The notes beneath the pieces were generated by a model, which worked only from the letters and a program-made list of their open reading frames with translations, was not told the origin of the DNA and did no database searches. Shown piece after piece: positions 1,100 through 17,645 of a stretch of DNA of 26,314 bases. The translations under genes and the position numbers were made by a program. Source of the DNA: a virus; IMG/VR virus record IMGVR_UViG_3300028607_002693, positions 1-26,314 of that record, one strand, 5' to 3'. How positions within the stretch are numbered: the first letter of the stretch is position 1; each line of letters opens with the position of its first letter.

Positions 1100-1648
1100 A
1101 TGAAAAAATTCAATTTAACTAATTTTATCAAGGAACAAATCATCTCCATTTTGAATGAAGATGATGGAGAATTAAATACAGACCATGTAATTTCTGCTTT
1201 TAAAAAAAATAATGTTAGTAATGATATAAAACAATTACTTTTTAGAGCCTATAAAGAAGGAGATATAAGTGCTGAGACTGTAATTAAAATTGTTAGTGGT
1301 GGGGTAGATGAAGCAACAATCGAAACTTCACCTGAAGATTTAAATAAAATAAAAGACAAAGTTGATGATGATGATACTATTAGGATAGTAAATGAAGATG
1401 AAGACGAAGATGAAGACCACAAATCAGCTGAAAAAGGGGCAAGAATAAACCACCCTAAATCTAAAAAATTAGATAATGTTATCAAAGCCTTAAATGATAC
1501 TAAAAAGGAAATGAAAACCCTTGTTAATCAATATAAAAAAGCAGAAGGAGAAGATAAACAAAAATATGTTCAACAATTAAAAGTTAAAACAAAAATAAAA
1601 AGTGAATTAGAATCATTAGTTCAGAAATTAGAAAAAGATGTTGTTTAA
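1100..1648 (+). CDS. Charged coiled-coil protein with a capsid-targeting-like leader
   Basis: This 182-residue protein is rich in Lys, Glu and Asp, with an acidic DEDEDED run near residue 100 and a Lys/Glu-rich coiled-coil-like C-terminal third. It has no membrane segment. The first 13 residues, MKKFNLTNFIKEQ, match the leader of the later cargo-like genes (MDNFDLRKYLAEG) position by position: Phe4, Asp/Asn5, Leu6, aromatic 9, Leu/Ile10 and Glu12. An (L/I)-x-E cleavage site for a gp21-type protease would fall after Glu12. A packaged head protein or prohead-core component is therefore plausible but inferred. The last codons overlap the start of the next gene at 1638. It is preceded by a TATTTATAAC motif. 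Confidence 0.75.
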   Translation: MKKFNLTNFIKEQIISILNEDDGELNTDHVISAFKKNNVSNDIKQLLFRAYKEGDISAETVIKIVSGGVDEATIETSPEDLNKIKDKVDDDDTIRIVNEDEDEDEDHKSAEKGARINHPKSKKLDNVIKALNDTKKEMKTLVNQYKKAEGEDKQKYVQQLKVKTKIKSELESLVQKLEKDVV

Positions 1649-2323: not shown

Positions 2324-2452
2324 ATGGTTGGAATATATAAAATAACAAACTCAAAAAGTGAGATTATTAATTTAAATACATCCCTAACTACAATAAGTAA
2401 TTCTTTAAGAAAATTTTATAAAACTTCTAAATGTAACTTTATATATGAGTAA
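2324..2452 (+). pseudogene. GIY-YIG-like stub (42 codons), possible homing-endonuclease remnant
   Basis: An ATG one base after the preceding stop opens a 42-codon frame beginning MVGIYKITNS. This is the classic first strand (GIY) of GIY-YIG endonucleases. The YIG half and the catalytic Arg and Glu are missing; instead a short Asn/Ser/Thr-rich tail runs into GAG-TAA. The stop lies inside ATGAGTAA, which holds the start codon of the terminase gene. A similar stub ends the same way before the gene at 6152. It may be a decayed seg-like endonuclease or a small genuine leader ORF coupled to terminase. Confidence 0.4.
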
Positions 2453-4028
2453 TAATGTTGATTTCAAACAAATAATTAGACAAGAATATATTAAATGTTG
2501 TTCTAGTCCTGTTCATTTTATGCGTAAATATTGTTATATACAACATCCCGAGAGAGGTCGTATATTATTTAATTTATACCCTTTCCAAGAAAAAATATTA
2601 AAATTATTTAATAAGCAAGACCTTTTAATAAATAAAGGAAGACAATTAGGAATTAGTACTTTAGTAGCGGCCTATTCTCTTTGGTTTATGTTATTTTTCC
2701 CTGATAAAAATATATTATGTATCGCCACTAAACAAAGTACCGCTAAAAATTTAGTTACTAAGGTAAAATTTATGTATGAAAACCTTCCTTCTTGGTTAAA
2801 AGTAGGATTTGAAGAAAAAAATAAATTAACTTTAAGATTAAAAAATGGTTCACAAATAATAGCTACTGCTGCTACTGATGATGCCGGTAGATCTGAATCT
2901 GTATCTTTACTAATAATTGATGAAGCAGCTTTTATTTCAAATATTGATAAGATTTGGCCTTCAGCTCAATCTACCCTTGCTACTGGAGGTAAATCAATAG
3001 TACTTTCAACTCCTTATGGTAGAGGAAATTGGTTTCATAAAATGTGGGTTGATGCTGAATTACAAGAAAATGAATTTATGCCTATTAAACTTCCTTGGTA
3101 CATCCACCCTGAAAGAGATCAAAAATGGAGAGATAGAGAAAATATTAGATTAAAATCAAAAAGAATAGCAGCACAAGAAAATGATTGTAATTTTTCAACT
3201 TCTGGAGAAGGGGTTTTTCATCCTGATTCTTTATTATACTATGAAAAAAATATGGTTAAAGAACCTTTATACAAAAGAGGGGCAGATCAAAGATTATGGA
3301 TTTGGGAAGACCCTGATTATACTAAAGATTATATGGTTGTAGCAGACCCTTCAAGAGGAGATGATAAAGACTTTTCAGCCTTCCATGTTATAGATGTTGT
3401 AAAAAATAAACAAGTTGGGGAATTTAAAGGTAAAATTAGTACAACTGATTTTGGAAATTTATTAGTTGGGGTAGCAACAGAATATAATAATGCTTTATTA
3501 GTTATTGAAAACTCTAATGTAGGGTGGGCTGTTGTACAAGTTGCAATAGATAGAGATTACCATAATTTATACCATTCCCCTAAAGGAAACAGTAATGCAA
3601 CACGTCATGATAAATTTTATGACAAATGGGTAAATTCAGGAAATATGGTGGCTGGATTCACTACTTCTTCTAAAACAAGGCCTATGATGATAGGTAAATT
3701 AGTGGAATATGTTAGTGAAAAAAATTTAATTATTCAATCAATCCGAACCTTAAATGAGATGGGAGTTTTTATTTGGAAAGGGGGTAGACCTGAATCAACA
3801 AAAGGATTTAACGATGATTTAGTAATATCTTTAGGAATAGCAATGTACATAAGAGATACAGCTCTTAAATTTAGACAAAGAGGAATTGAAATGACTAAAG
3901 CTGTTATTAATAATATGAGAGTAAATAGAACTTCTTATGCTGGGGCTTATAGACCCACAAAAGTAGATAACCCTTATATTATGAAACATAGTAAAGGAAA
4001 AGAAGACATCAGTTGGCTTTTAAAGTGA
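2445..4028 (+). CDS. 17: Terminase large subunit (gp17-like packaging ATPase-nuclease)
   Basis: This 527-residue protein is the motor that packages DNA into the prohead through the portal and cuts the concatemer. The adenine-binding/Q region (LYPFQEKIL) at about 44-52 precedes a Walker A of variant form, NKGRQLGIST (63-72), in which the usual Gly-Lys-Thr is Gly-Ile-Ser and the basic residue is K64 or R66. Walker B is LLIIDEA with D159 and E160. The C-terminal RNase H-like nuclease has its acidic triad in MVVADPSRGDD (D301), LLVIENSN (E355) and GFNDDLVIS (D457/D458). Length and order fit T4-like gp17, which is usually about 550-610 residues. The portal gene follows directly; the start overlaps the GIY-YIG-like stub by 8 nt. 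Confidence 0.95.
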   Translation: MSNNVDFKQIIRQEYIKCCSSPVHFMRKYCYIQHPERGRILFNLYPFQEKILKLFNKQDLLINKGRQLGISTLVAAYSLWFMLFFPDKNILCIATKQSTAKNLVTKVKFMYENLPSWLKVGFEEKNKLTLRLKNGSQIIATAATDDAGRSESVSLLIIDEAAFISNIDKIWPSAQSTLATGGKSIVLSTPYGRGNWFHKMWVDAELQENEFMPIKLPWYIHPERDQKWRDRENIRLKSKRIAAQENDCNFSTSGEGVFHPDSLLYYEKNMVKEPLYKRGADQRLWIWEDPDYTKDYMVVADPSRGDDKDFSAFHVIDVVKNKQVGEFKGKISTTDFGNLLVGVATEYNNALLVIENSNVGWAVVQVAIDRDYHNLYHSPKGNSNATRHDKFYDKWVNSGNMVAGFTTSSKTRPMMIGKLVEYVSEKNLIIQSIRTLNEMGVFIWKGGRPESTKGFNDDLVISLGIAMYIRDTALKFRQRGIEMTKAVINNMRVNRTSYAGAYRPTKVDNPYIMKHSKGKEDISWLLK

Positions 4029-4105: not shown

Positions 4106-6001
4106 ATGGTAAATAAAAGCATATTTAGTAGATTAAAAAGATTATTCTCTAATGACATTATAATAAGAAATGTTGGAAGAAATAGGATTAGAACTATTGA
4201 TATTAATTCTATTCAAAGAAGTGGGAAAATTGCAACCAACTCAATGGATGATAGGTTTAATAGAATTTTTGCTACAGGTTCACCTACATCTCTTTATGGA
4301 AAACAATTTAATTTAAATTATCAATATTTAAGACCTCAATTGTATTCAGAATATGATACAATGGACCAAGATGCAATTATAGCAACAGCATTAGATATTG
4401 TAGCAGATGAATCTACATTAAAAAATGATTTAGGAGAAACATTACAAATACGAAGCTCAAACAAAGATATCCAAGATAAATTATACAATTTATTTTATGA
4501 TATTTTAAATATTGAATTCAATTTATGGTCTTGGGTTCGTCAAATGTGTAAATTTGGGGATTTTTTCTTAAAATTAGAAATAGCCGAAAAATTTGGAGTA
4601 TATAATATAATACCTTATACAGCCTTTCATATAGAAAGACAAGAAGGATATGATAAAGACAATCCAGCAGATGTAAGATTTAGATTTGACCCTGATGGAA
4701 ATATAAGTACAGGATATGCTCGTGGTTATGTTTCTCCTAAAGATAGTAAAACGGGAACATTTTTTGATAATTATGAAATGGCTCACTTTAGATTAATATC
4801 TGATGTAAATTACCTTCCTTATGGAAGATCATACATAGAACCTGCTCGTAAATTATTTAAACAATATTCTCTTATGGAAGACGCGATGCTTATCCATAGA
4901 ATAACTAGAGCCCCTGAAAAAAGAATATTTTATATAAATGTAGGAGCAATTCCACCAAATGAAGTTGACGCTTTTATGGAAAAAACTATTAGTAATATGA
5001 AGCGTACTCCTCATCAAGACCCTGAAACAGGAGATTATAACTTAAAGTATAATATTCAAAATTTATTAGAAGATTTTTATATTCCCCAAAGAGGTAATGA
5101 TAATTCCACTAGAATAGAAACTATTAAAGGTTTAGAATACACTGGAATAGATGATGTTATATATTTAAGAGATAAATTATTTGCTGCTTTAAAAGTTCCA
5201 AAAGCTTTTATGGGGTATGATGAAAACCTTGAAGGTAAAGCCACACTTGCAGCTCAAGATATTAGATTTGCCAGAACTATTAATAGAATTCAAAAAATTA
5301 TAATATCAGAATTAAATAAAATTGCATTTGTTCATTTAACAACTTTAGGGGTAAATGAAAATGAATTAATTAATTTTACATTAGAATTAACAACACCTTC
5401 AATTATATATGACCAAGAAAAAATTGAATTATTAAAATCAAAAGCTGAATTATCCCAAACTCTATTAGACCAAAAATTGATTCCATCAGATTGGATTTAT
5501 GATCACATTTATCACTTTAGTGAAGATGAATATGAGGAATATAGAGCTTTAGTTAGAGAAGATTCTCAACGTAATTTTAGAAATCACCAAATTCAAGAAG
5601 AAGGTAATGACCCACAAGAAACTGGTAAATCATATGGTACTCCTCATGATTTAGCATCATTATATGGAAAAGGAAGAACAGCTTCAGACCCAAGTAATGT
5701 CCCTGATGGTTATGAAGAAGAAGATTTAGGAAGACCCCAAGATACGATTACCAAAAGAAATAAACAAGAAGATAATTTTGGTAAAGATAGATTAGGAGTT
5801 GATAGAATGAAAGGCAAAGACCATAATGAAGGTGATGGCATTTTCCCAAAAACTAAAAAAGGACCATTAGCTTTAGAAGGAACTGTGAGGTCTTTTTATA
5901 AAAATAAAAAAATGTTAATTAATTATTCCAAAAAACAATTAATTTTTGAAACTAATCCTAACCAATTATCACTTTTAGATGAATCCCAATTAGAAGAATA
6001 A
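4106..6001 (+). CDS. 20: Portal vertex protein (gp20-like)
   Basis: This 631-residue protein forms the dodecameric ring at one capsid vertex through which the terminase threads DNA and to which the neck attaches. The region YSEYDTMDQDAIIATALDIV, followed by ADEST, at about residues 80-105 is a strong signature of T4-family portals. So are the later FGDFFLKLE, PYGRSYIEPARK and RITRAPEKR segments and the KVPKAFMGYDENLEGKATLA segment in the crown/clip region. The last 110 residues are hydrophilic, Gly/Asp/Lys-rich (GKSYGTPHDLASLYGKGR) and probably disordered, making it longer than T4 gp20 (524 residues). It lies directly after terminase, without gp18 or gp19 between. Confidence 0.95.
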   Translation: MVNKSIFSRLKRLFSNDIIIRNVGRNRIRTIDINSIQRSGKIATNSMDDRFNRIFATGSPTSLYGKQFNLNYQYLRPQLYSEYDTMDQDAIIATALDIVADESTLKNDLGETLQIRSSNKDIQDKLYNLFYDILNIEFNLWSWVRQMCKFGDFFLKLEIAEKFGVYNIIPYTAFHIERQEGYDKDNPADVRFRFDPDGNISTGYARGYVSPKDSKTGTFFDNYEMAHFRLISDVNYLPYGRSYIEPARKLFKQYSLMEDAMLIHRITRAPEKRIFYINVGAIPPNEVDAFMEKTISNMKRTPHQDPETGDYNLKYNIQNLLEDFYIPQRGNDNSTRIETIKGLEYTGIDDVIYLRDKLFAALKVPKAFMGYDENLEGKATLAAQDIRFARTINRIQKIIISELNKIAFVHLTTLGVNENELINFTLELTTPSIIYDQEKIELLKSKAELSQTLLDQKLIPSDWIYDHIYHFSEDEYEEYRALVREDSQRNFRNHQIQEEGNDPQETGKSYGTPHDLASLYGKGRTASDPSNVPDGYEEEDLGRPQDTITKRNKQEDNFGKDRLGVDRMKGKDHNEGDGIFPKTKKGPLALEGTVRSFYKNKKMLINYSKKQLIFETNPNQLSLLDESQLEE

Positions 6002-7437: not shown

Positions 7438-7710
7438 ATGTATAAGTATAAATTAAGTGAAGAAGTTAGTCGTGTTGAAAACTTTCAACAAGGTAGAATA
7501 TCTTCCTTTGATAATTTAGAAAAACAATTAATTGGTATAAAAAAAGCATTAAGAATAGCAAAGAATGAAACTATAAAATATTATAATGAAAATCCCCAAA
7601 CATATGAAGTTGTATATGGAACAGATTTAATTCAAGACTATTTTAAAGACATAAAAACATTATTAAGACAAGAAAATAAAACATATGAAAACTCTACAAG
7701 AACAATTTAA
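7438..7710 (+). CDS. Small helical protein of unknown function
   Basis: This 90-residue, Lys/Glu/Asn/Tyr-rich protein is predicted mostly helical by eye (EKQLIGIKKALRIAKNETIK). It has no membrane segment or cysteine and no motif I recognise. It starts one base after the stop of the 7008 gene and its last 26 nt overlap the start of the 7685 gene in another frame. This tight coupling places it in the same assembly operon. Confidence 0.65.
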   Translation: MYKYKLSEEVSRVENFQQGRISSFDNLEKQLIGIKKALRIAKNETIKYYNENPQTYEVVYGTDLIQDYFKDIKTLLRQENKTYENSTRTI

Positions 7711-9274
7711 CCTTATCCAAGAAGGTAAAGGACATAAAGGAGTATTTTTAACAGAAGCAAAAAGAAAATACCCACACTTTATTGTAAATAAAGCAACTTT
7801 TAAACAGGCAGAACATATCTTAAAAACCAAAAATATAATTACTGAGGGTTATGTAGATTTAATGCCTATTAATACTTTTCAACGTAGTGCAAAACCTGAA
7901 TGGCAATTAGATTTTGAAAAATTTTTAACTGAGGAAAATAAAAAAGTTAAAGAAGAAAATGTAAAAGTTGAATCTAAAAAAATATCCAAAGAAGTTGAAG
8001 AAATTCAATCTCATAATTATGATTTTAAAGATAAGTCAAATCTTGATAACCAAATAGGTCATGAAATTCAAAAAGGAATATATTATGAATCTAAACAAGA
8101 TGAAGCAGCAACTTTAGAAGAAATTAAAAAAATAGTATCTAAAAATTTAGAAAAAGATCCTTTATGGTATAAGAAAAATGCTGCTTTTGGAATTAAAGGA
8201 ATAGGATATGAAGAAGCTGAGGTATATGAAGTAAGTGGTAAACATAAAGAAAGCGGATTCTCAGATAAACATAAAAAATTAGTTAAAGAATCCTTAATAG
8301 GAGGCATTTCAAACTTAAATGAATATGATGAGTCTACAACAGAATCATCTTCTACATTATCAGAAGAAAAACAAATAGAAATAAAAACATTACTTGCTGA
8401 TTATGGTGATGAAGCAGAAATTGAATTATATGTAAATTCTTTATTTAAATCAATTATAGGAGGAGATACAAGTTACCAAGAATTTTCACAAGATGACTTT
8501 ATTGAAGACTTTAAAAATTATGTAGCTGATAAATCATTAGAAGAAAAAGAATCAATAGGCGAAGATGATAATGGGAAAAGTAAGGATGATTATGATTACC
8601 CTCCAGGTAAAGAAGGAGAAGATGGTGAAGAAGAAGATTCTACATATGCTGATCCTGAAGTAGGTCCTCAACCTTCAGATGACCCCGATTATGGATATAT
8701 AAAAAATGAGGATGACCATCCTTCACCTAAAGAAGATAAAACTAAACCAAAACCTAAAAAAATGAAAAAAGATTCTTTAACTGCAAGACTTAAAGAAATC
8801 GACAATCAAGGATTAATAGTAACTATGGAAGCTAAAATTGAAGCTATTAGTGAAGAAATTGAACGTCGAAATGAAAGATTATCAATGATTGATGAAAATA
8901 GTGATTTAGCAGAATTAATTGATAAGAAAAGATTAAAAGAAATGCAACGTGATATTAAAAAACTTGAAAAAGAAAAAGCTAGACATGAAAAAATGTATGA
9001 AAGATTAGCTAAATCTCCATATTCTAAGAAAAAAATTATTGATGAAAATTTAAAAAAATATTTAGCTGAAGGTAAGCTATTAAAAGAATCTTTAGATATA
9101 GAAAAACTAAGATTTGAAGTAGATGATGTAGCATCTTATCTGGAAGATGAATCTTTAGAAAAAGAAGTAATGGATAATGTATTGAGTAAAAATGAGGACG
9201 ACCCCTTTCAGACTTTTGGTGAATTATATGCTTATCTAGATGGTTTACTACAGCACCCAAACTACGCATTTTAA
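7685..9274 (+). CDS. Acidic prohead-core-like protein with several gp21-type cleavage sites
   Basis: This 529-residue, strongly charged protein starts MKTLQEQFNLIQEGKG, similar to the leader of T4 internal proteins (MKTYQEF.AEA). Sites of the form (L/I)-x-E|(G/A) occur at IQE|G (after E13), LTE|A (after E24), ITE|G (after E54) and LAE|G (after E462). An acidic low-complexity stretch at about 285-350 is followed by a Lys-rich segment (KPKPKKMKK) and a long coiled coil (about 375-440). The last 80 residues begin with LKKYLAEGKLLKES, the same leader found at the start of the downstream cargo-like genes, so this end looks like a fused leader plus cargo. It is probably a core protein processed during maturation. 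The function is inferred from cleavage motifs and position. Confidence 0.75.
   Translation: MKTLQEQFNLIQEGKGHKGVFLTEAKRKYPHFIVNKATFKQAEHILKTKNIITEGYVDLMPINTFQRSAKPEWQLDFEKFLTEENKKVKEENVKVESKKISKEVEEIQSHNYDFKDKSNLDNQIGHEIQKGIYYESKQDEAATLEEIKKIVSKNLEKDPLWYKKNAAFGIKGIGYEEAEVYEVSGKHKESGFSDKHKKLVKESLIGGISNLNEYDESTTESSSTLSEEKQIEIKTLLADYGDEAEIELYVNSLFKSIIGGDTSYQEFSQDDFIEDFKNYVADKSLEEKESIGEDDNGKSKDDYDYPPGKEGEDGEEEDSTYADPEVGPQPSDDPDYGYIKNEDDHPSPKEDKTKPKPKKMKKDSLTARLKEIDNQGLIVTMEAKIEAISEEIERRNERLSMIDENSDLAELIDKKRLKEMQRDIKKLEKEKARHEKMYERLAKSPYSKKKIIDENLKKYLAEGKLLKESLDIEKLRFEVDDVASYLEDESLEKEVMDNVLSKNEDDPFQTFGELYAYLDGLLQHPNYAF
9045..9088 (+). repeat. Internal copy of the capsid-targeting-like leader repeat
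   Basis: Within the 7685 gene, these bases encode NLKKYLAEGKLLKES. At DNA level they nearly match the starts of the genes at 9673, 13214 and 13593 (shared TATTTAGCTGAAGGT and AAGCTATTAAAAGAA pieces). This copy is internal, unlike the others, suggesting fusion of an upstream gene to a former leader-bearing gene. Confidence 0.6.
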
Positions 9275-9294: not shown

Positions 9295-9666
9295 ATGGAT
9301 AATTTCGATTTAAGAAAATATTTAGCTGAAGGTCGCATTCACCTAAGTGAAAATATAACTCAATTTGAAATTAAATCTAAAGAAGATGTAAAATTTAATG
9401 ATTATGTTGAAGTTAATCAAGCAGAATTTGATAGACTATATGATAGACTAGAAGATGAGTTTGATGGGAGTGTAGAAGATTTTGTAGAAGAATATGGTCC
9501 AGATTTTTTAGGCCCTAACATAGAAGCAATTAATCAATATTATGGTGTTAAAGTTTATGCAGATGATGTAATTACTGATTTCTTTGAAGCAGGGGGTGTT
9601 GATAATATCTCCTCTAATGAAGAATTTGAAGCGTGGTTAGATAAAAATAGAGAATTTTATATATAA
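9295..9666 (+). CDS. Putative internal head protein with YLAE|G leader
   Basis: This 123-residue acidic protein starts MDNFDLRKYLAEGRIHLSEN. The first 12 residues match the shared leader of this region, and LAE|G fits the T4 prohead protease consensus, so the mature form would begin at Gly13. The rest is rich in Asp, Glu and aromatic residues (DRLYDRLEDEFDGSVEDFVE, then EYGPDFLG) with no family I recognise. A FEAGGVDNISSNEEFEAWLD stretch near the C-terminus suggests a small helical fold. The ATG sits in a Shine-Dalgarno-free A-rich leader 20 nt after the previous stop. A packaged cargo role is inferred. Confidence 0.75.
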   Translation: MDNFDLRKYLAEGRIHLSENITQFEIKSKEDVKFNDYVEVNQAEFDRLYDRLEDEFDGSVEDFVEEYGPDFLGPNIEAINQYYGVKVYADDVITDFFEAGGVDNISSNEEFEAWLDKNREFYI

Positions 9667-9672
9667 AATAAA

Positions 9673-10011
9673 ATGGATACTTTCGATTTAAAAAAATATT
9701 TAGTTGAAGGTAAGCTATATAAAGACGATGTATGGTATATAGAGGCATCAGAAGATAGTGCTGATATATCGGATGCAGGCCCAGAATATAAAGAAGCAGT
9801 AATAAACATTATTAAATCAAAACACCCTGATATTTCAGATAAAGATTTAGAAGCATCTATAGAAGTAATGAACGTTACATGGTATAATGAAGCAAGGAGT
9901 AATGCTAAAGGATCTGAACCAGAAGAAATGGAAGTTTCTGCTGAAGATTTTGCTGATGGAGCAATAGAACACTATGAAGATGTGATTGTATGGGATAATA
10001 ATAATAAATAA
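9673..10011 (+). CDS. Putative internal head protein with YLVE|G leader
   Basis: This 112-residue acidic protein starts MDTFDLKKYLVEGKLYKDD and has the same leader as its neighbour, with the predicted cut after Glu12. The body (YIEASEDSADISDAGPEYKE onward) is Asp/Glu-rich and contains a segment like a small alpha/beta domain (INIIKSKHPDISDKDLEASI). Apart from the leader it shows no clear similarity to the 9295 protein. It lies 6 nt after it, and the gene after it starts 4 nt past its stop. No function can be assigned beyond probable packaging into the head. Confidence 0.75.
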   Translation: MDTFDLKKYLVEGKLYKDDVWYIEASEDSADISDAGPEYKEAVINIIKSKHPDISDKDLEASIEVMNVTWYNEARSNAKGSEPEEMEVSAEDFADGAIEHYEDVIVWDNNNK

Positions 10012-10015
10012 AATA

Positions 10016-11236
10016 ATGAGTATATTCGATAAATTTTTTACAAAATTTGCTTATAAATTTGACAAAGGATATCCTGACATGAATAATGATCAGGATATTT
10101 TGTTGTTGGAGAGTATATTGGAAGAATTAGGTGTGAGAGTAAGGATGAATGAAGCAGGTAAAATAAAAAACCATGACATTGCTAAAGAAAAAATTGTAAA
10201 TTCACCTGAAGGTAAAAAAGCAGGTTTAGTACCAATGGCTAAAACCGCTACATATAGAATTGGTAATAGAAATAAAATCTCATCAGATGAATTTATTGAA
10301 GTTATCAAATCTGTATACCCAGAAACAGAAGTTGAAGTATTAAGTAAAGGAGTAGGAGATAATACAAGTGGTCAATTTAATTTGTTTAAGTTTCAAACTG
10401 AAGGGGGTGATGTTAAATTCTATTTAGCAGGTGGTGGTAATGAAGGTGAAAAATATGAACAAGATTTTATTAAAAACGCTCAAATAGGAGCAGGTCAACC
10501 TAATGATACTTTACCTATAAATCTTCAAACTTTATATAAAAGATTAGATATAGATAATACAAAATTATCCCCAAAAGATATTATATTTGCAGGAGCAACT
10601 GATACTAAACGTGATTTATCATTTGAAGGTCCTAAAGATATAGGTGAAACCGTATCTGATATGACAATTACTTATAACAATGAAGATATTTATATTTCAC
10701 TTAAAAATGTAAAAGGATCTGGAGTTTATAGTGGTAAAAATGTTCCCTTTATTGTAGGTAAACCTAATAATAAGGAACCTCAAACTATAATATATGATGC
10801 TTCTAAAAAAGAAGCGATACCTAATATAAGTACATTATATGATATGTTTGGAATAGACCCTGAAAAAGTGGCCCAAGGTTTAAATGACTATATTTCAAAA
10901 GAGGGAGTAGAAGATAGTTGGTCTAGTGTAGATATTGACGAAGAAAAATTTCAAAAGTTTTTAGCTTCTTCATTTGGTTATGGTTATTGGTATGTAAAAG
11001 AAATTAAAGGAGACGATGTAAAAGTAGTCCCTATCCTAACCTCAACCCAAGCATTAGATGCTGCCGGAGAAGTAACTTCAACAGAAATTAAATATGCAGG
11101 TCCAAAAACAAAAATAACAGCAGTTAAAATAAAAACAAAAAGTGAAGCATTTGGACAATCAGAATATTTAGTAGCTTCAAGAAACACCACAGGAGACATT
11201 GTTCCTCTAGCTTTAAGAATTTCTAAAACCAAATGA
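10016..11236 (+). CDS. Possible PD-(D/E)XK-like nuclease in the head-cargo region
   Basis: I prefer ATG 10016 (406 residues, MSIFDKFFTKFAYKFDK), because the upstream ATG at 9986 lies inside the previous gene; an internal ATG at 10079 is also possible. The N-terminal 50 residues are leader-like, ending LLLESILEELGVRVRMNEAG with possible Glu cleavage sites (E36, E37, E46). The centre has GEKYEQDFI (E148), VSDMTITYN (D215) and IYISLKNVKGSG (K230), the spacing of an E...D...xLK restriction-like nuclease core, though the usual D/E before x-K is Ser. After about residue 330 a beta-rich region follows. If packaged, it could act on host DNA on injection or on DNA in the head. The nuclease call is tentative. 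Confidence 0.7.
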   Translation: MSIFDKFFTKFAYKFDKGYPDMNNDQDILLLESILEELGVRVRMNEAGKIKNHDIAKEKIVNSPEGKKAGLVPMAKTATYRIGNRNKISSDEFIEVIKSVYPETEVEVLSKGVGDNTSGQFNLFKFQTEGGDVKFYLAGGGNEGEKYEQDFIKNAQIGAGQPNDTLPINLQTLYKRLDIDNTKLSPKDIIFAGATDTKRDLSFEGPKDIGETVSDMTITYNNEDIYISLKNVKGSGVYSGKNVPFIVGKPNNKEPQTIIYDASKKEAIPNISTLYDMFGIDPEKVAQGLNDYISKEGVEDSWSSVDIDEEKFQKFLASSFGYGYWYVKEIKGDDVKVVPILTSTQALDAAGEVTSTEIKYAGPKTKITAVKIKTKSEAFGQSEYLVASRNTTGDIVPLALRISKTK

Positions 11237-11310
11237 TATTTATAACCATGAAAGAATCACTTACATCATATACACGTTTAAAAAAACTTATAAAATAAGC
11301 ATTTCATCAT
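11236..11310 (+). repeat. Direct repeat copy 1: TATTTATAAC plus decayed MKESL mini-ORF
   Basis: This stretch carries TATTTATAAC at 11237-11246, one base before an ATG at 11248 encoding MKESLTSYTRLKKLIK and then TAA. It is nearly identical to 13028-13101. Where the second copy has a GAA codon followed by an open frame, this copy has TAA, followed by a one-base length change, so it looks decayed. It also carries the regulatory motif. Confidence 0.75.
11248..11298 (+). pseudogene. Decayed MKESL leader mini-ORF (16 codons)
   Basis: ATG 11248 encodes MKESLTSYTRLKKLIK followed by TAA. The intact-looking relative at 13041 continues E-A-F-S-S-S-P, so the TAA replaces the Glu of the L-I-K-E|A cleavage-like site. 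It is probably a nonsense-mutated copy. Confidence 0.5.
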
Positions 11311-11323
11311 CTCCATTAAATAA

Positions 11324-11333
11324 ATTTATAATA
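11324..11333 (+). promoter_or_regulatory. AATTTATAAT, weak copy of the late-promoter-like motif
   Basis: AATTTATAAT differs from TATTTATAAC at two positions and ends 7 nt before the ATG of the 11341 gene. It is weaker than other copies. Assignment rests only on similarity and position. Confidence 0.25.
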
Positions 11334-11340
11334 AAATAAA

Positions 11341-12033
11341 ATGGATAATTTTAATCTAAGAAAGTACCTAATAGAAAACCAACTCACACACTCCTCAGTG
11401 TCATTAAATGAGATTTCTATAGATATGTTACACACCCACTTTGTGGATACAGGTAGAATAGATAAAAATACATTTAGTACTATATTGGATGCATCCCAAA
11501 AAGATTCTGCTTTTGCTACATGGTTAACTTCTAGAGTAGCTGGTACTAAAAAGGTAAAATCTATTATTAAAAAGGAAGACATATCTAAATACAAAAAATA
11601 TTTAGACATATTTAAAAGAAACAAAAGAGAATATCCACTTAAGGATATTAACATGATCAAAGATCAAAACGCATTAGATGATTTTATTAAAAAATCAAGA
11701 GAAATACAAGCTAACGAAGAAGGAGATATTTCCCAACAAAAAGGATTATCTAAATCTGAAAAATATACTAAGCTAAAACTTGGGGAAGTAGATGGATATG
11801 AAATATTCAAATTCCCAAAAGATTCAAAAGATTTATATAACGCAAGCTGTGAATTAGGAGCAGGTACATCATGGTGCACATCAACAGGTAATACCGATAC
11901 TTGGTTTTTAAACTATATTAGCCAAGGAGACATATATATTATAATAAATAAAAATAATCCAAAAGATAAATATCAATTTCATTATGAAAGTAATTCATAC
12001 ATGGACTCAAATGATATAGATATTTTTGGATAG
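11341..12033 (+). CDS. Leader-bearing protein with GTSWCT domain, possibly C-terminally truncated
   Basis: This 230-residue protein starts MDNFNLRKYLIENQLTHSS, the shared leader with LIE|N as predicted cut site. After a helical, Lys-rich middle (about 60-130) comes VDGYEIFKFPKDSKDLYNAS, then ELGAGTSWCTST, a GDIYIIINK strand and KYQFHYESNSYMDSND. I associate this block (GTxWCT ... LYxIxxK ... KYQFHxESxxxMDxxD) with an uncharacterised domain of large phage proteins. The gene stops immediately after that block, where relatives I recall continue, so it may be shortened. It is followed after 13 nt by an unrelated nucleotidyltransferase-like gene. Function unknown; packaging is inferred from the leader. 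Confidence 0.75.
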   Translation: MDNFNLRKYLIENQLTHSSVSLNEISIDMLHTHFVDTGRIDKNTFSTILDASQKDSAFATWLTSRVAGTKKVKSIIKKEDISKYKKYLDIFKRNKREYPLKDINMIKDQNALDDFIKKSREIQANEEGDISQQKGLSKSEKYTKLKLGEVDGYEIFKFPKDSKDLYNASCELGAGTSWCTSTGNTDTWFLNYISQGDIYIIINKNNPKDKYQFHYESNSYMDSNDIDIFG

Positions 12034-12046
12034 GTAAAAGTTTCAA

Positions 12047-12481
12047 ATGGAGTTAGATATACAACTAGAAAAATATTTAGAAGATTATATAAAAATACAA
12101 AATAGTTTTGATTTTATTTCACTAGGAGGAAGTTTACCATTAATGATATATGGTTACATCCCATTTAGGAAAATTAAAGATTTTGATATTATTAGTACTC
12201 AATATATAGATAAGAACGAAATAAGATACAAAGCATTTAATATTTTACCACCTAAATACCCAATAAAAGGAAATCATATAACACATAATAGAAATAAATT
12301 TGATTTACACATAAACTCAAACGCAACATATAATTTCATATTCTTTGAAGGGTACAATTTAAGATTATCTCCATTAGAAGAAATATTATTTTTTAAATCA
12401 TACCATTTAAATAAAAATAAAACAAAAGAAGACTTTAAAACATTAATAAACACTATATCAAATGGACATACAAATAGATAA
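12047..12481 (+). CDS. Nucleotidyltransferase-like protein (pol-beta superfamily pattern)
   Basis: This 144-residue protein shows the minimal nucleotidyltransferase pattern: FISLGGSLPLMIYGYIPFRK (GGS at 27-29), then IKDFDII with D45 and D47 as the D-x-D pair, and KFDLHIN with D86 as the third acidic residue. A C-terminal LSPLEEILFFKSYHL helix is typical for such proteins. Members transfer nucleotides to small molecules, RNA or proteins, and many are antitoxins, toxins or abortive-infection components. Here the target cannot be told. It has no MDNF leader and its last 20 nt overlap the next gene. It lies inside the segment flanked by direct repeats, so it may be a recently acquired cargo or moron gene. 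Confidence 0.7.
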   Translation: MELDIQLEKYLEDYIKIQNSFDFISLGGSLPLMIYGYIPFRKIKDFDIISTQYIDKNEIRYKAFNILPPKYPIKGNHITHNRNKFDLHINSNATYNFIFFEGYNLRLSPLEEILFFKSYHLNKNKTKEDFKTLINTISNGHTNR

Positions 12482-12989
12482 ATTTAAAGACTATCAAGTA
12501 GTAAATACTCCAAAAGTTACTCAAATAATAGACGGTTCTATAAACAAAGAGTGGTGGGATGCAGAGGGGTGGTCATCAATGTACGATATGAGTGCTCAAA
12601 AATTTAAAGAAGGTTTACCGGGTTGGGATAGAGATATATCATCTGCTGTAACTCCTCTTTTATTTAAACAATCCAGTGAAGAATCTGATAAACTACAAGG
12701 GGTATTCTATTTTTTAGAAAAAAAAGAAGGTAGAGAAAACCCACTAAAAGCTGAGGCAGAATCAAATTATATATTTACAAACCCTAAAGCCTTATATGTA
12801 GGAAAACTAGGTTTTGGTTACATTAATGATAAAGGTAAAATAGAAGTATTTCCTTACCCTGCATCTAATGAAGCTGCGAACGAGGATGGTGAAACTAAAT
12901 TGTATATTACAGGTGTTAAAGACAGAGGTGTAGTAGTATGGAATGATGCTTTAGAACAAGAATATGATAACCCATATGATATAATGTAA
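12462..12989 (+). CDS. Hypothetical protein coupled to the nucleotidyltransferase-like gene
   Basis: This 175-residue protein starts MDIQIDKFKDYQVVNTPKVT, 20 nt inside the previous gene. The middle is rich in Trp and aromatic residues (NKEWWDAEGWSSMYDMSAQK), followed by a beta-rich half (FTNPKALYVGKLGFGYINDK) and an acidic end. It lacks the MDNF leader and any membrane segment or catalytic motif I recognise. Overlap with the nucleotidyltransferase-like gene suggests a functional pair, for example enzyme and partner or inhibitor, but this is inference from spacing only. Confidence 0.7.
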   Translation: MDIQIDKFKDYQVVNTPKVTQIIDGSINKEWWDAEGWSSMYDMSAQKFKEGLPGWDRDISSAVTPLLFKQSSEESDKLQGVFYFLEKKEGRENPLKAEAESNYIFTNPKALYVGKLGFGYINDKGKIEVFPYPASNEAANEDGETKLYITGVKDRGVVVWNDALEQEYDNPYDIM

Positions 12990-13027
12990 AAATTATATAG
13001 ATTTAAATTTAAAATAAAATATAGTTA

Positions 13028-13101
13028 ATATTTATAACCAATGAAAGAATCACTTACATCATATACACGTTTAAGAAAACTAATAAAGGAAGCATTTTCA
13101 T
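13028..13101 (+). repeat. Direct repeat copy 2: TATTTATAAC plus MKESL mini-ORF
   Basis: This is the second copy of the repeat at 11236-11310. TATTTATAAC lies at 13029-13038, two bases before ATG 13041. The copies share an almost unbroken block through TCACTTACATCATATACACG and then diverge by scattered substitutions. The pair brackets about 1.7 kb holding the 11341, 12047 and 12462 genes. Confidence 0.75.
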
Positions 13102-13130
13102 CTTCTCCTAAAAAGAATGATTGTAATTGA
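13041..13130 (+). CDS. MKESL leader peptide with Cys-rich tail interrupted by TGA
   Basis: ATG 13041 encodes 29 residues, starting MKESLTSYTRLRKLIKEAFS and ending PKKNDCN, then TGA (13128-13130). The frame continues after the TGA as GCGGCANKHKTLIINK to TAG at 13179-13181. Reading TGA as a mutated Cys or Trp codon would give a Cys-rich CNxGCGGC motif. LIKE|A fits the prohead protease consensus with the cut after Glu17, so this may be a second leader class with a tiny Cys-rich cargo. It may be a pseudogene, a sequencing error or a recoded gene. Confidence 0.45.
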   Translation: MKESLTSYTRLRKLIKEAFSSSPKKNDCN

Positions 13131-13187
13131 GGTTGTGGGGGATGTGCTAACAAACATAAAACTTTAATAATTAACAAATAGTTTGTA

Positions 13188-13197
13188 TATTTATAAC
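13188..13197 (+). promoter_or_regulatory. TATTTATAAC motif, candidate late promoter element
   Basis: An exact copy ends 16 nt before ATG 13214, in a gap containing no other gene after the Cys-rich mini-ORF. The spacing matches the copies before 1100, 4106, 6037 and 17910. Confidence 0.45.
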
Positions 13198-13213
13198 AAA
13201 CCAAAATAAAAAA

Positions 13214-13591
13214 ATGGATAATTTCGATTTAAGAAAATATATTAGCGAAGGTAGGCTATTAAAAGAAGATATGTCTCTCGAAGTGGATGGTGATTTTACA
13301 GGTGATTATGAAGTTGACAAATACACCACCATTACACTGTCAGGTGACTCAGGTGATTACGATGGATTTTTAAATGACGATGGTACAATATCTTTTTCAT
13401 TAGTTGATGATAATATAGAAGATAAATATGAAGAGGGATTTGAAGATGAAAATTGGTTTTATTATTTAGGACCAAAACACACACTTGTACAAATATCAAA
13501 AAAAATACCTACTAAAGTAGAAACAGGAGGTGACTATGTAATGATTACAGTAGATTTAGAAGATCTTAAAAATCTCTTTAAAATAAACTAA
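13214..13591 (+). CDS. Putative internal head protein with YISE|G leader
   Basis: This 125-residue acidic protein starts MDNFDLRKYISEGRLLKED, with the shared leader and a predicted cut after Glu12. The body is Asp/Gly-rich and beta-like (TITLSGDSGDYDGFLNDDGT) and ends in a short beta/helix part (VMITVDLEDLKNLFKIN). It has no recognised domain and is unlike the other leader-bearing genes after residue 20. It is preceded by an exact TATTTATAAC motif and followed after 1 nt by the orphan leader at 13593. A packaged function is inferred. Confidence 0.75.
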   Translation: MDNFDLRKYISEGRLLKEDMSLEVDGDFTGDYEVDKYTTITLSGDSGDYDGFLNDDGTISFSLVDDNIEDKYEEGFEDENWFYYLGPKHTLVQISKKIPTKVETGGDYVMITVDLEDLKNLFKIN

Positions 13592-13592
13592 A

Positions 13593-13685
13593 ATGGATAA
13601 TTTCGATTTAAAAAAATATTTAGCTGAAGGTTGGTTATTAAAAGAAGAAAATATAATGAAACTTCTCATCAAGATGAAGATTTAA
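13593..13685 (+). pseudogene. Orphan capsid-targeting-like leader with cargo lost
   Basis: ATG 13593 encodes 30 residues beginning MDNFDLKKYLAEGWLLKEEN, a near-perfect copy of the shared leader, and then stops at 13683-13685. A one-base shift near 13655 would instead read YNETSHQDEDLNI to a stop at 13691-13693, an acidic tail like those of the neighbours. That suggests a frameshift in a short gene, or the remains of a leader whose cargo was deleted. The protease gene starts 4 nt after that second stop. Confidence 0.55.
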
Positions 13686-13696
13686 ATATATAATGA

Positions 13697-14305
13697 ATGA
13701 AACAATTATTAATTGAAACTCACATTTTTCAACCTATTAAATCTACACTTAATGAAAGTCTTGGAGATGATAATAAAAATCTTGTAGTAGAAGGAATTTT
13801 AGCAACTGTAGAAGTTGAAAATGGGAATGGAAGATATTATTCAAGAGAACTTTGGGAAAGAGAATTGGGTAAATATGCTGAAGTAGTCAAACAAAGACGT
13901 TCAATGGGAGAGCTTGACCATCCTGAATCTGAAGTAATTAATCTAAAAAATGTATCTCATTTAATTAAAGAATTTTGGTGGGAGGGTAAAGAAATAATGG
14001 GTAAAATAGAAATTTTACCTACCCCTTCAGGTAACATATTAGCTGAATTACTTAGAAATAAAGTAGTTTTAGGAGTTTCATCAAGAGGATTAGGTTCATT
14101 AGAAGAAAGAGACGGAATAATGGAAGTTCAAGATGATTTTGCTTTACTTTGTTTTGATTTCGTATCAACACCTTCAAACCCCGGTTCTTATTTTCATACT
14201 CTGAATGAAAATAAAAAAATGAAAGATATAAAAAACACTTATAAAAAAGTTAATGAAATATTAACTGAAATATTATGTTCTAAAGGAACATGCCCAACAT
14301 TTTAA
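13697..14305 (+). CDS. 21: Prohead core protein protease (gp21-like)
   Basis: This 202-residue serine protease matures the prohead by cutting scaffold, internal proteins and the capsid precursor, mainly after Glu in (L/I)-x-E sites. GRYYSRELWERELGKYA is followed by the catalytic His in MGELDHPESE (H75) and the catalytic Ser in VLGVSSRGLGSL (S128 or S129), the herpesvirus-type order shared by T4 gp21 and HK97 proteases. Its own N-terminal region (STLNESLGDD, LVVEGIL) offers possible self-cleavage sites. It lies directly after the leader-bearing genes and before the scaffold, which fits its use of the YLAE|G sites. The length agrees with T4 gp21 (212 residues). The end overlaps the next ORF's upstream ATG. 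Confidence 0.92.
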   Translation: MKQLLIETHIFQPIKSTLNESLGDDNKNLVVEGILATVEVENGNGRYYSRELWERELGKYAEVVKQRRSMGELDHPESEVINLKNVSHLIKEFWWEGKEIMGKIEILPTPSGNILAELLRNKVVLGVSSRGLGSLEERDGIMEVQDDFALLCFDFVSTPSNPGSYFHTLNENKKMKDIKNTYKKVNEILTEILCSKGTCPTF

Positions 14306-14804: not shown

Positions 14805-16001
14805 ATGTCAACAAACAGAGAATTGTTAAGAAAATCTATTGCGGATGCAAAGGTTTTAAAAGAAACAGCTCTTGCAACTGCTAAAAAAGCATTAGAGGAA
14901 GCATTTACACCTCACTTAAAATCTATGTTATCAGCAAAACTCGAAGAAATGGATAAAGAAATTGAAGAGGGAGACTATAAAATAGATGAAGGTAAGGAAG
15001 AAATTGAAGAATCGCAAGAGGACGGAATTAATTTAGACGAATTATTATCCGAATTAGAAGAGGAAGAATCAAAAGATGGTGATGAAAGTGTAGACGAGAA
15101 AAAGGATGCAGATGACAAACCAAAAGATGATAAAAAAGATTCTAAACCAAAAGAAAAATCAGATGATGATGATAAGGACGATAAGCCCAAATCAGATACT
15201 GAAGATGAAGATGAAGGTGGAGATGAAGTAGATGGAATAGAAGGAGACCTTGATGATGAGGAAATTAATTTAGAAGATTTATCAGAAGAAGAATTTACAT
15301 CTTATATCGAAGATGTTATAAGAGGAATGGTTTCAGCAGGTGAATTAGAAGCTGGTGAAGGATATTCTGAAGGTGATGACTTAGAAGATGTTGAGGGTGT
15401 AGGAGATGGAAAAGGGGCAGAAGGCCCTGATTTAGAAGGAGAAATTGATGATTTAGAAACAGGTACTGACACTCTAGGAACAATGGTAACAGAATATGTC
15501 CCAGAATCTTCAGTAGCAGGAGGTTTAGATAACATTATTAGTTTAATTAAATCAGCAGTTGAAAAAACTCCAGAGTACGCTAAAAAGATTAAAGACTTTG
15601 TTGAAGATTTAGGTTCAGCAGCAGGAAGTGCTATTAGAAACGAAGAAGGTATTAGTCAAGACCAATTCCAATCATTGCAAGAAGAAAATAGAAAAACAAA
15701 TTTATTAAATGGTAAATTAATGTATTCTATAAAAATCTTTAAAGGTAAACAATTAACCGAAGCAAAACAAATAAAAGTTTTAAATGCTTTTGACAAAGCA
15801 AAAACTATTAAAGAAGCTAAAGTAATTTATGCAACTTTAAATGAAAATTTAGAATCAAAAAGAACAATTAAAAAACCTTTAAGAGAAATTAGAGGAAGAG
15901 CTTCACAAACAATAGGAGCAGTTCATAATTCTAGAAAAAAACAGCCAATAGTTGAAAATGAAGCATATGTAAGAATGCAAAAACTAGCGGGATTAAAATA
16001 A
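14805..16001 (+). CDS. 22: Prohead scaffold/core protein (gp22-like)
   Basis: This 398-residue protein is the expected major scaffold around which the capsid shell forms, later degraded by gp21. It has a helical N-terminus (MSTNRELLRKSIADAKVLKE), an extremely acidic Asp/Glu/Lys region (about 45-220) and a helical C-terminus. Sites of the (L/I)-x-E|A type occur at LEE|A (after E32), QLTE|AKQ and TIKE|AKV near the C-terminus. It is longer than T4 gp22 (269 residues), mainly through the acidic region. TTTTAGGAAAAAATG gives a modest Shine-Dalgarno. It lies immediately before the capsid gene, as in T4. The identity rests on composition, cleavage sites and order. Confidence 0.85.
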   Translation: MSTNRELLRKSIADAKVLKETALATAKKALEEAFTPHLKSMLSAKLEEMDKEIEEGDYKIDEGKEEIEESQEDGINLDELLSELEEEESKDGDESVDEKKDADDKPKDDKKDSKPKEKSDDDDKDDKPKSDTEDEDEGGDEVDGIEGDLDDEEINLEDLSEEEFTSYIEDVIRGMVSAGELEAGEGYSEGDDLEDVEGVGDGKGAEGPDLEGEIDDLETGTDTLGTMVTEYVPESSVAGGLDNIISLIKSAVEKTPEYAKKIKDFVEDLGSAAGSAIRNEEGISQDQFQSLQEENRKTNLLNGKLMYSIKIFKGKQLTEAKQIKVLNAFDKAKTIKEAKVIYATLNENLESKRTIKKPLREIRGRASQTIGAVHNSRKKQPIVENEAYVRMQKLAGLK

Positions 16002-16019: not shown

Positions 16020-17645
16020 ATGAGTTTACAAAAACTTTTAGAAAGTGCGAACCCTTATAAATCACTTCAATCAGATGCAGCAAGATTAGCTAGCAAATGG
16101 GCAAGAACAGGGTTACTTAAAGGCTTAAATGAAGACCAGAGAAATCATATGTCTTTATTATTAGAAAGCCAAGCAAAACAACTTGTGATGGAAAGTTCAC
16201 AAACTGGTGGGGGCACAGGCTCTACAGGAGCATTTACATCAGGAGTTGGTGAACAATGGGCGGGCGTTGCTCTTCCATTAGTAAGAAAAGTATTTGGTAG
16301 TATTGCTGCACAAGAATTTGTATCAGTACAACCAATGAATTTACCTTCGGGACTAGTATTTTATCTAGATTTCCAATATGGTACTAATAAAACTCCTTTT
16401 TCTAAAGGAGATTCAGTATATGGTGATAGTGGTAGTAATGCTCCATTTGGTAACACAGATACAGGTGGATTTTATGGTGCAGGAAGATTTGGATATTCTA
16501 CAAATAATACATCATCAGTAGTTACAGCAACAACTTCATCAGCCAATTGGTCAGATGTTGGATTTGATTCTGATTTTTCAGCATCAGCCACAGGAGGTGA
16601 ATTAACTAAAGTACAAGTTGCTAAATCTGAATTATCAAATTTAGATGAAGCTGGTGTTAGAGGATTTGTATTATCAGGTACTAATTTAACTGTATCAGAA
16701 AACCTCCCACAATTTACATCTAATAGTGCAGATAACGTAACTTGGATTATTAGTGGTTCAGATGCTGATACTACAACTGCTAATGAGTATACAGTTGAAT
16801 ATCAATTACAACCAACTGACCGATATAGAGGTGATTTTGAGGATGGAAACGATGCCTTAACACCTGGTAGTAGTGATATTAGTATTCCAGAAATTAACGT
16901 TGAAATGAGAAGTTCAGCCATAGTTGCTAAAACTAAAAAGTTAAAAGCAGTATGGACTCCTGAGTTTGCTCAAGATTTAAATGCTTACCAATCATTAGAT
17001 GCCGAAGCAGAATTAACATCTATTTTAAGTGATTATATTTCATTAGAAATTGACTTAGAAATTTTAGATATGTTAATTGATGGTGCTTCTGCTGGAACGG
17101 AAATTTGGTCAGCAGTAAACAATCAGTCAATTATTGATAATGAAGGAAATGGAACAATTAGTGATTTAGGATTCTATAATTCACAAGGACAATGGTTCCA
17201 AACATTAGGTACAAAAATCCAAAAATTAAGTAATGTAATTCACCAAAAGACTCTTAGGGGTGGTGCTAACTTCATGGTAATTTCACCAACAGTAAGTACT
17301 ATTATAGAATCAATCCCAGGATTTGCTTCTAATCATACTGGTGATGTTACAAAATCTAATTATGCTTTTGGAGTACAAAAATCAGGAACATTTGGAAGTG
17401 GACAATACAAAGTTTACAAAAACCCTTATATGAAAGAAAACACAATCCTATTAGGATTTAGAGGTTCTCAATTCTTAGAAAGTGGTGCTGTATTTGCCCC
17501 ATATATTCCTTTAATAATGACTCCTCTTGTTTATGACCCAGACACATTTACACCAAGAAAAGGTCTATTAACAAGATACGCTAAGAAATTAGTTAGACCA
17601 GAATTTTATGGTATTGTTAAAGTTAGTGGTTTAAATACTCTATAA
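16020..17645 (+). CDS. 23: Major capsid protein (gp23-like)
   Basis: This 541-residue precursor of the capsid shell subunit has an N-terminal delta-like region rich in Leu, Gln and Glu. Cleavage by gp21 is expected near QLVME|SSQTGG (after E58). Mature regions match T4-family gp23: VGEQWAGVALPLVRKVFGSI, AQEFVSVQPMNLPSGLVFYL and KTKKLKAVWTPEFAQDLNAY, then LDAEAELTSILSDYISLEID. The C-terminus has YDPDTFTPRKGLLTRYAKKL. Residues about 135-270 form a Ser/Thr/Asn/Gly-rich insertion with little similarity to T4, probably a surface domain. No vertex paralogue (gp24) is seen next to it. A strong terminator follows. Confidence 0.96.
   Translation: MSLQKLLESANPYKSLQSDAARLASKWARTGLLKGLNEDQRNHMSLLLESQAKQLVMESSQTGGGTGSTGAFTSGVGEQWAGVALPLVRKVFGSIAAQEFVSVQPMNLPSGLVFYLDFQYGTNKTPFSKGDSVYGDSGSNAPFGNTDTGGFYGAGRFGYSTNNTSSVVTATTSSANWSDVGFDSDFSASATGGELTKVQVAKSELSNLDEAGVRGFVLSGTNLTVSENLPQFTSNSADNVTWIISGSDADTTTANEYTVEYQLQPTDRYRGDFEDGNDALTPGSSDISIPEINVEMRSSAIVAKTKKLKAVWTPEFAQDLNAYQSLDAEAELTSILSDYISLEIDLEILDMLIDGASAGTEIWSAVNNQSIIDNEGNGTISDLGFYNSQGQWFQTLGTKIQKLSNVIHQKTLRGGANFMVISPTVSTIIESIPGFASNHTGDVTKSNYAFGVQKSGTFGSGQYKVYKNPYMKENTILLGFRGSQFLESGAVFAPYIPLIMTPLVYDPDTFTPRKGLLTRYAKKLVRPEFYGIVKVSGLNTL

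Follow-up and report, generated by a model that had tools for sequence, protein, structure and literature searches.

Why do five genes of a viral DNA fragment open with nearly the same dozen residues and then part ways? The fragment is IMG/VR virus record IMGVR_UViG_3300028607_002693, positions 1 to 26,314; this whole 26-kb stretch is called the window below, and its genes follow the order of its relatives: terminase, portal, core, gp21, scaffold and major capsid protein (MCP). An earlier reading of these letters, the original prediction, proposed that the N-terminal leader marks proteins as head cargo and is cut by the gp21-like prohead protease, as for the internal proteins of phage T4. Our analysis makes it very likely that this is a capsid-targeting, gp21-cut leader system like that of T4, larger than it and with several interchangeable leaders.

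In the mechanism we propose, the leader would act as a capsid-targeting propeptide, binding the prohead core during assembly through its first part (F4, Y/F9) and carrying the attached protein into the prohead. A gp21-type protease would then cut after the Glu of (L/I)xE, at residue 12 and/or at a second site (residues 17-24). Once cut, the cargo would lie free in the head and would probably be injected along with the DNA. Phages would exchange cargo genes as leader-plus-cargo cassettes, and the same domains would alternatively travel as pieces of the core protein. Core binding, cutting, packaging, presence in the virion and injection are the steps that we infer.

The leader, its two sites and its phage clade

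The motif MDNFDL(K/R)KYLxE(G/N) opens the window open reading frames (ORFs) at 9295, 9673, 11341, 13214 and 13593, which encode 123, 112, 230, 125 and 30 amino acids (aa) and start with MDNFDLRKYLAEG, MDTFDLKKYLVEG, MDNFNLRKYLIEN, MDNFDLRKYISEG and MDNFDLKKYLAEG, respectively. These are the genes named originally, the last being only 30 aa long. All window features given here lie on the + strand. With arrows at the predicted cuts, the genes read MDNFDLRKYLAE↓GRIHLSE↓N (9295..9666; acidic, isoelectric point (pI) about 4.1), MDTFDLKKYLVE↓G (9673..10011; acidic), MDNFNLRKYLIE↓NQLTHSSVSLNE↓ISID (11341..12033) and MDNFDLRKYISE↓GRLLKE↓D (13214..13591); the solo leader ORF at 13593..13685 would be an empty or truncated cassette. 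Four of the five leaders have Glu12 in the L/I-x-E form, and 13214 has YISE, also I-x-E. Pairwise, they share 26-38 of 39 nt. A sixth, in-frame copy (NLKKYLAEGKLLKE, 9048..9088) lies inside the 529-aa core ORF 7685..9274 and is 93% identical to 13606-13646. In a position-matrix control, the score passed by 206 real N-termini was reached by 0 of 23,450 shuffled ones, so the likeness is not due to chance.

The post-leader parts show no direct mutual alignment, in keeping with the complete divergence first claimed, but the cargos of 9295, 9673 and 13214 are connected indirectly through multi-domain relatives. Every homologue found of the 9673 cargo carries the leader, as does a 9295 homologue, L200:705, which lies 387 bp from gp21. 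In an AlphaFold model of 13214 (predicted local distance difference test, pLDDT, 73), residues 6-18 have pLDDT <50 and a folded domain spans 39-119; the floppy leader in this model fits a removable tail and proves nothing. Foldseek with the same model gave no significant match, and the model of 11341 (pLDDT 46) was useless.

Leader proteins were pooled from at least 119 stretches of viral contigs matching a leader DNA pattern, from 80 gp21 loci and from five near-complete genomes; the IMG/VR contigs are fragmentary, with some redundancy among them. The at least 199 distinct proteins fall, by their post-leader parts, into at least 110 clusters, of which 82 are singletons and the largest has 30 members among the matches listed; some cargos of one genome are related. 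In the near-complete genomes (156-241 predicted genes each) the leader occurs at N-termini only; the core-matrix cut-off gives between 1 and 7 leader genes per genome, and a looser score an eighth in G006. Among the matches listed, 26 leader contigs are at least 25 kb long: all those with an MCP or terminase match have this clade's version, three of the remainder bear its helicase or sheath, and the others are fragments without any of these markers.

The leader search of phage genomes suggested at the outset was run and gave a single carrier among 50,697 phage records, Flavobacterium phage immuto, one cultured clade member, with the leader on four genes. Their predicted sites are MENFDLKKFLVE↓NKLTTNSKILKE↓NSN (immuto26A_195), MENFDLKKFLVE↓NRLTYNSKLINE↓GQA (immuto26A_3), MADNFNLRSFLTE↓NKLTKNAQLLKE↓GSD (immuto26A_194) and MENTFDLKKFLVE↓NKLTNNSRLLEVE↓GAA (immuto26A_179). 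In prokaryote genomes (257 Gb, 15-residue version of the pattern) the leader was seen on three contigs only, and a place in cellular genomes was rejected because all three have many matches to this clade's phage genes and are stray fragments of it. The phage record closest to the window MCP is immuto (57%); Rhodothermus phage RM378, from the Far-T4 branch of T4-like phages (PMC4360716), also matches (36%). Among the matches listed, the leader was found only in one Far-T4-like clade.

Because the pattern used for part of the leader set fixed Glu12, site rates were taken from a sample of 114 selected on residues 1-9 only. Here Glu12 is present in 94.7% and L/I10 in 95.6%, and G, N, S or A follows Glu12 in 98%. 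Of 130 proteins, 105 have a second (L/I)xE within residues 13-26; random windows taken from these proteins would give about 17, and shuffled segments 36. The seven proteins that lack Glu12 all retain this second site, at residue 17 or 18. Head proteins of the clade bear the same conserved (L/I)xE↓(G/N/S/A) sites across orthologues: E20 of gp21 (100%, followed by G, N or S), E13 and E54 of the core protein, E8, E34 and E49 of MCP, E626 of the portal, and several in the scaffold.

Four cargos were aligned behind two different leaders each: 11341 (SLNE↓ISIDML) with L249 (MKLRDLLNEMLNE↓VAIDQL), L102 (LLKE↓AQDNPKA) with L209 (MISLVQLLRE↓AQGNPKA), L094 (LYE↓AVMACP) with L226 (LSE↓AEVAKCP), and L090 (LSE↓ESKKRDRC) with L109 (LLE↓EKEKRDRC), the last local alignment starting slightly upstream. 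Since these alignments begin at the protease-type second LxE, the exchanged unit ends there, and the true module boundary is this second site, at residue 17-24. The leader end originally placed at residue 12 does fit the gp21 consensus, but as the first of two sites.

The proposed cargo and its tie to the head

The gene next door at 13697..14305 encodes a gp21-type prohead protease, as predicted (motifs GELDHP and SSRGLGS; phrog_207, E 1.7e-55; T4 gp21 5jbl, E 7e-15). In many relatives' loci a leader gene lies directly 3' of gp21. In the near-complete genomes, 13 of 20 leader genes fall between 20 kb upstream of the terminase and 3 kb past gp21, compared with 3.5 expected, although neighboring leader genes within one cluster are not independent events.

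The evidence that points most strongly to head cargo is that several leader-borne domains recur as parts of the prohead core protein, joined at LxE sites, together with a virion homologue of the 11341 domain. In L130 and L116, the protein just upstream of gp21, where the prohead core is encoded, includes domains known from other contigs as separate leader-borne proteins (L193:3042-3305, L090:849 and L106:2954). These score 254, 168 and 162 against the L130 core (shuffled maxima 59, 57 and 77), and the domain junctions lie at ELKE↓N, VVTE↓N and IVE↓D. A leader protein of L088 has the coiled domain that is conserved among other core proteins. The core protein of the window (7685..9274; gp67/68-like by its position, which in relatives is immediately ahead of gp21) took in a leader cassette, seen as an extra C-terminal part. 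The 11341 cargo domain matches EST35_0205 of phage PA5oct (29% over 174 aa), which is annotated as detected by electrospray ionization tandem mass spectrometry (ESI-MS/MS) and whose gene adjoins the terminase. In DSL-LC01, an unrelated phage, a relative of the HiPIP-annotated cargo lies next to a capsid maturation protease.

Pfam gave few matches on 111 cargo representatives (zeta toxin/AAA, HD and DUF5872), and among them no replication, transcription or tail family. PADLOC matches among the cargos were weak (E about 1e-4) and were not used. Phages of this clade commonly encode zeta-toxin-like kinases, whose leaders can be swapped (L102:8743, L209:8433, L243:3990). The leader-bearing L202:7632-8630 (immuto26A_194) has the GenBank label cob(I)alamin adenosyltransferase (PduO), without Pfam support. 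The L130 core ORF (starting at 4727, - strand; 775 aa) resembles a string of cargo domains with LxE sites between them.

Several observations weigh against a head-targeting, gp21-cut leader. LxE is a short motif, the 9673 leader is without a clear second site, and some leader genes are distant from the head genes. The cargo is mostly acidic (median pI 4.69), while T4 internal proteins are basic. Leader queries of the 50,697 phage records aligned with no known phage leader other than those of immuto.

It is improbable, in our view, that the leader targets proteins into the prohead and stays uncut, LxE being a helix or binding requirement. Such a separation has a precedent, as Asp at position 10 of the T4 capsid targeting sequence (CTS) blocks processing and permits targeting (PMC9026906); against it, P3, P1 and P1' are conserved as in the MCP, gp21 and core sites, the second LxE is retained where the first is lost, and cargo homology begins right after LxE. 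A DNA or translation element (a recombination site or start-region enhancer) with an incidental peptide would suit solo copies such as 13593 and a leader codon identity of 0.76 within and 0.69 between contigs, above the 0.62 expected from codon usage. We hold this to be very unlikely: unrelated leader sequences serve the same cargo, the peptide sites are conserved and compensating, and the codons for D, N, K, Y and E vary as in the cargo, which indicates that the peptide is conserved and not the DNA, even though those for L, A and G are more uniform than in the cargo. The DNA likeness is compatible with common descent plus a degree of duplication or recombination and with nothing beyond that, and gives mild support only to the cargo exchange by recombination at the leader that had been envisaged.

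There is similarly little chance that the leader directs proteins to some other destination in the infected cell, to a membrane, a replication site or degradation. Some leader genes do lie near replication genes (immuto26A_3), and the cargos include a few enzymes (a zeta-toxin-like kinase, an HD domain), but the core-protein fusions, gp21 adjacency, virion homologue and confinement of the leader to this T4-like clade speak for the head; leaders on clearly non-virion genes, named in the original prediction as contrary evidence, were looked for and none was found. The leaders are clearly homologous and some one-genome cargos related, which would suit a single ancient paralogous family with bodies diverged past recognition. 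This we find scarcely credible, as the cargos include distinct known families (zeta toxin, HD, DUF5872 and the HiPIP-annotated family) and the same cargos also stand behind other leaders.

Further leader types and other window genes

De novo comparison of N-termini within genomes revealed two further shared leaders, type 2 (MKK..L(K/R)xIIKEE...LNE) and type 3 (MKKxILSEQFxRMQKLAGIITE). The modular head-cargo system first proposed is partly supported from the sequence, with its modular leader, gp21-type sites and many kinds of cargo beside gp21, but the clade uses at least two leader types besides MDNFDL. The window gene at 1100..1648 (MKKFNLTNFIKEQIISILNE) had been counted with the MDNFDL carriers, and its letters fit their spacing, but its orthologues read MKKSELKSFIKEEILSTLSE and so place it in another leader family. 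Together with remnants at 11248..11304 (MKESLTSYTRLKKLIK, then a stop) and 13041..13097 (a second copy, MKESLTSYTRLRKLIKEAF), it appears to belong to type 2. A loose type-2 pattern also matched terminase N-termini, and type-2 counts were dropped. The type-2 mini-ORF at 13041-13180 stops at a TGA exactly at the Cys codon of relatives (DCN-stop-GCGGC in the window, CDCGCGGC in G003), which is a nonsense mutation, an error or recoding; an RNA structure supporting selenocysteine was looked for at this TGA and none was found (z 0.9).

The type-3 motif RMQKLAG also forms a conserved tail at the scaffold's C-terminus across the clade; 45 of 53 tails carry it (with M or F), and most others have RWQ.LAG. 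The window scaffold (gp22 position, 14805..16001) ends in YVRMQKLAGLK, with the tail motif at 15966..15998. Among all ORFs, RMQKLAG was C-terminal in 21, N-terminal in 19 and mid-protein in 1, and as a leader it opens unrelated proteins at L202:1676, L203:25061 and L235:4271. Because scaffold tail and leader share this motif, the data suggest that at least type 3 may work by imitating the scaffold. A further N-terminal module of about 40 residues (YKFxKGYPDMxNxQD) is found on 41 distinct proteins with at least 9 different C-terminal bodies; in the window it opens the island gene 10016..11236 and is followed by LLLE↓S.

We lean slightly towards an open plug-in head-cargo system with three or more leader families that can replace one another (MDNFDL..., MKK..IIKEE..LNE and the transplanted scaffold tail RMQKLAG), and with a core protein that in some members would have become a polyprotein, made up of these cargo domains and cut at LxE. 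Proteins injected alongside DNA by uncultured phage are normally invisible in sequence. If the leader does address proteins to the head, contigs alone suffice to list what a widespread T4-like clade carries as cargo; the list here holds at least 110 clusters, nearly all without known function, and includes zeta-toxin-like kinases and HD enzymes. A minimal leader would then serve as a packaging tag outside T4, and the scaffold-tail leader gives a specific hypothesis for the binding of such tags to the prohead.

The remaining landmarks are the terminase large subunit (2445..4028), the portal (4106..6001; conserved C-terminal LLDE↓(S/N)) and MCP gp23 (16020..17645; propeptide with conserved LLE↓S, LLE↓G and ILE↓N). 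The 11341 gene has two companions, one nucleotidyltransferase-like by eye (12047..12481) and one at 12462..12989; this trio (11341-12989) stays together in three phages, the others being L073 and L249, the latter with a different order. Positions 22448-26308 hold many imperfect repeats encoding NVGIGTTSP-like stretches, resembling tail-fibre proteins.

Comparison with known head-cargo systems

PA5oct EST35_0205, a virion protein by ESI-MS/MS with its gene next to the terminase, has the domain homologous to the 11341 cargo; it differs in having 482 aa and no MDNFDL leader, and in belonging to a Pseudomonas jumbo phage. The ejection proteins of SPN3US and phiKZ are head cargo with N-termini cut by a prohead protease, and in SPN3US the first 15 residues of gp53 are the same as those of gp54 and contain two sites (PMC5694885). 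However, their propeptides are mostly long (>100 aa), with AXE or SXE motifs, and a common leader is confined to one paralogue pair. In the literature, no paper was found joining capsid targeting sequences and metagenomic phages.

The T4 CTS has the sequence MKTYQEFIAEA, as quoted in the original prediction. In T4 IPI, IPII, IPIII and Alt, as here, a short N-terminal propeptide ending in (L/I)xE stands on otherwise unrelated proteins, with gp21 in the same phage. T4 gp21 cuts after L/I-x-E, and the CTS is 10-19 residues long, with targeting through residues 4 and 7 and processing through residues 8 and 10 (PMC9026906). The invariant F4 and the Y/F9 right before L10-x-E12 in this clade may correspond to the aromatic residues that T4 has at position 4 and right before L/I-x-E, but the sequence differs and the spacing is two residues longer; neither the leader queries of the phage records nor the cargo scans gave homology to the T4 CTS or to a T4 internal-protein family. 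Compared with T4, the clade adds a conserved second site, at least 110 cargo clusters, up to 7-8 leader genes and several leader types per genome, cargo that is acidic and not basic, and cargo domains that also occur within the core protein.

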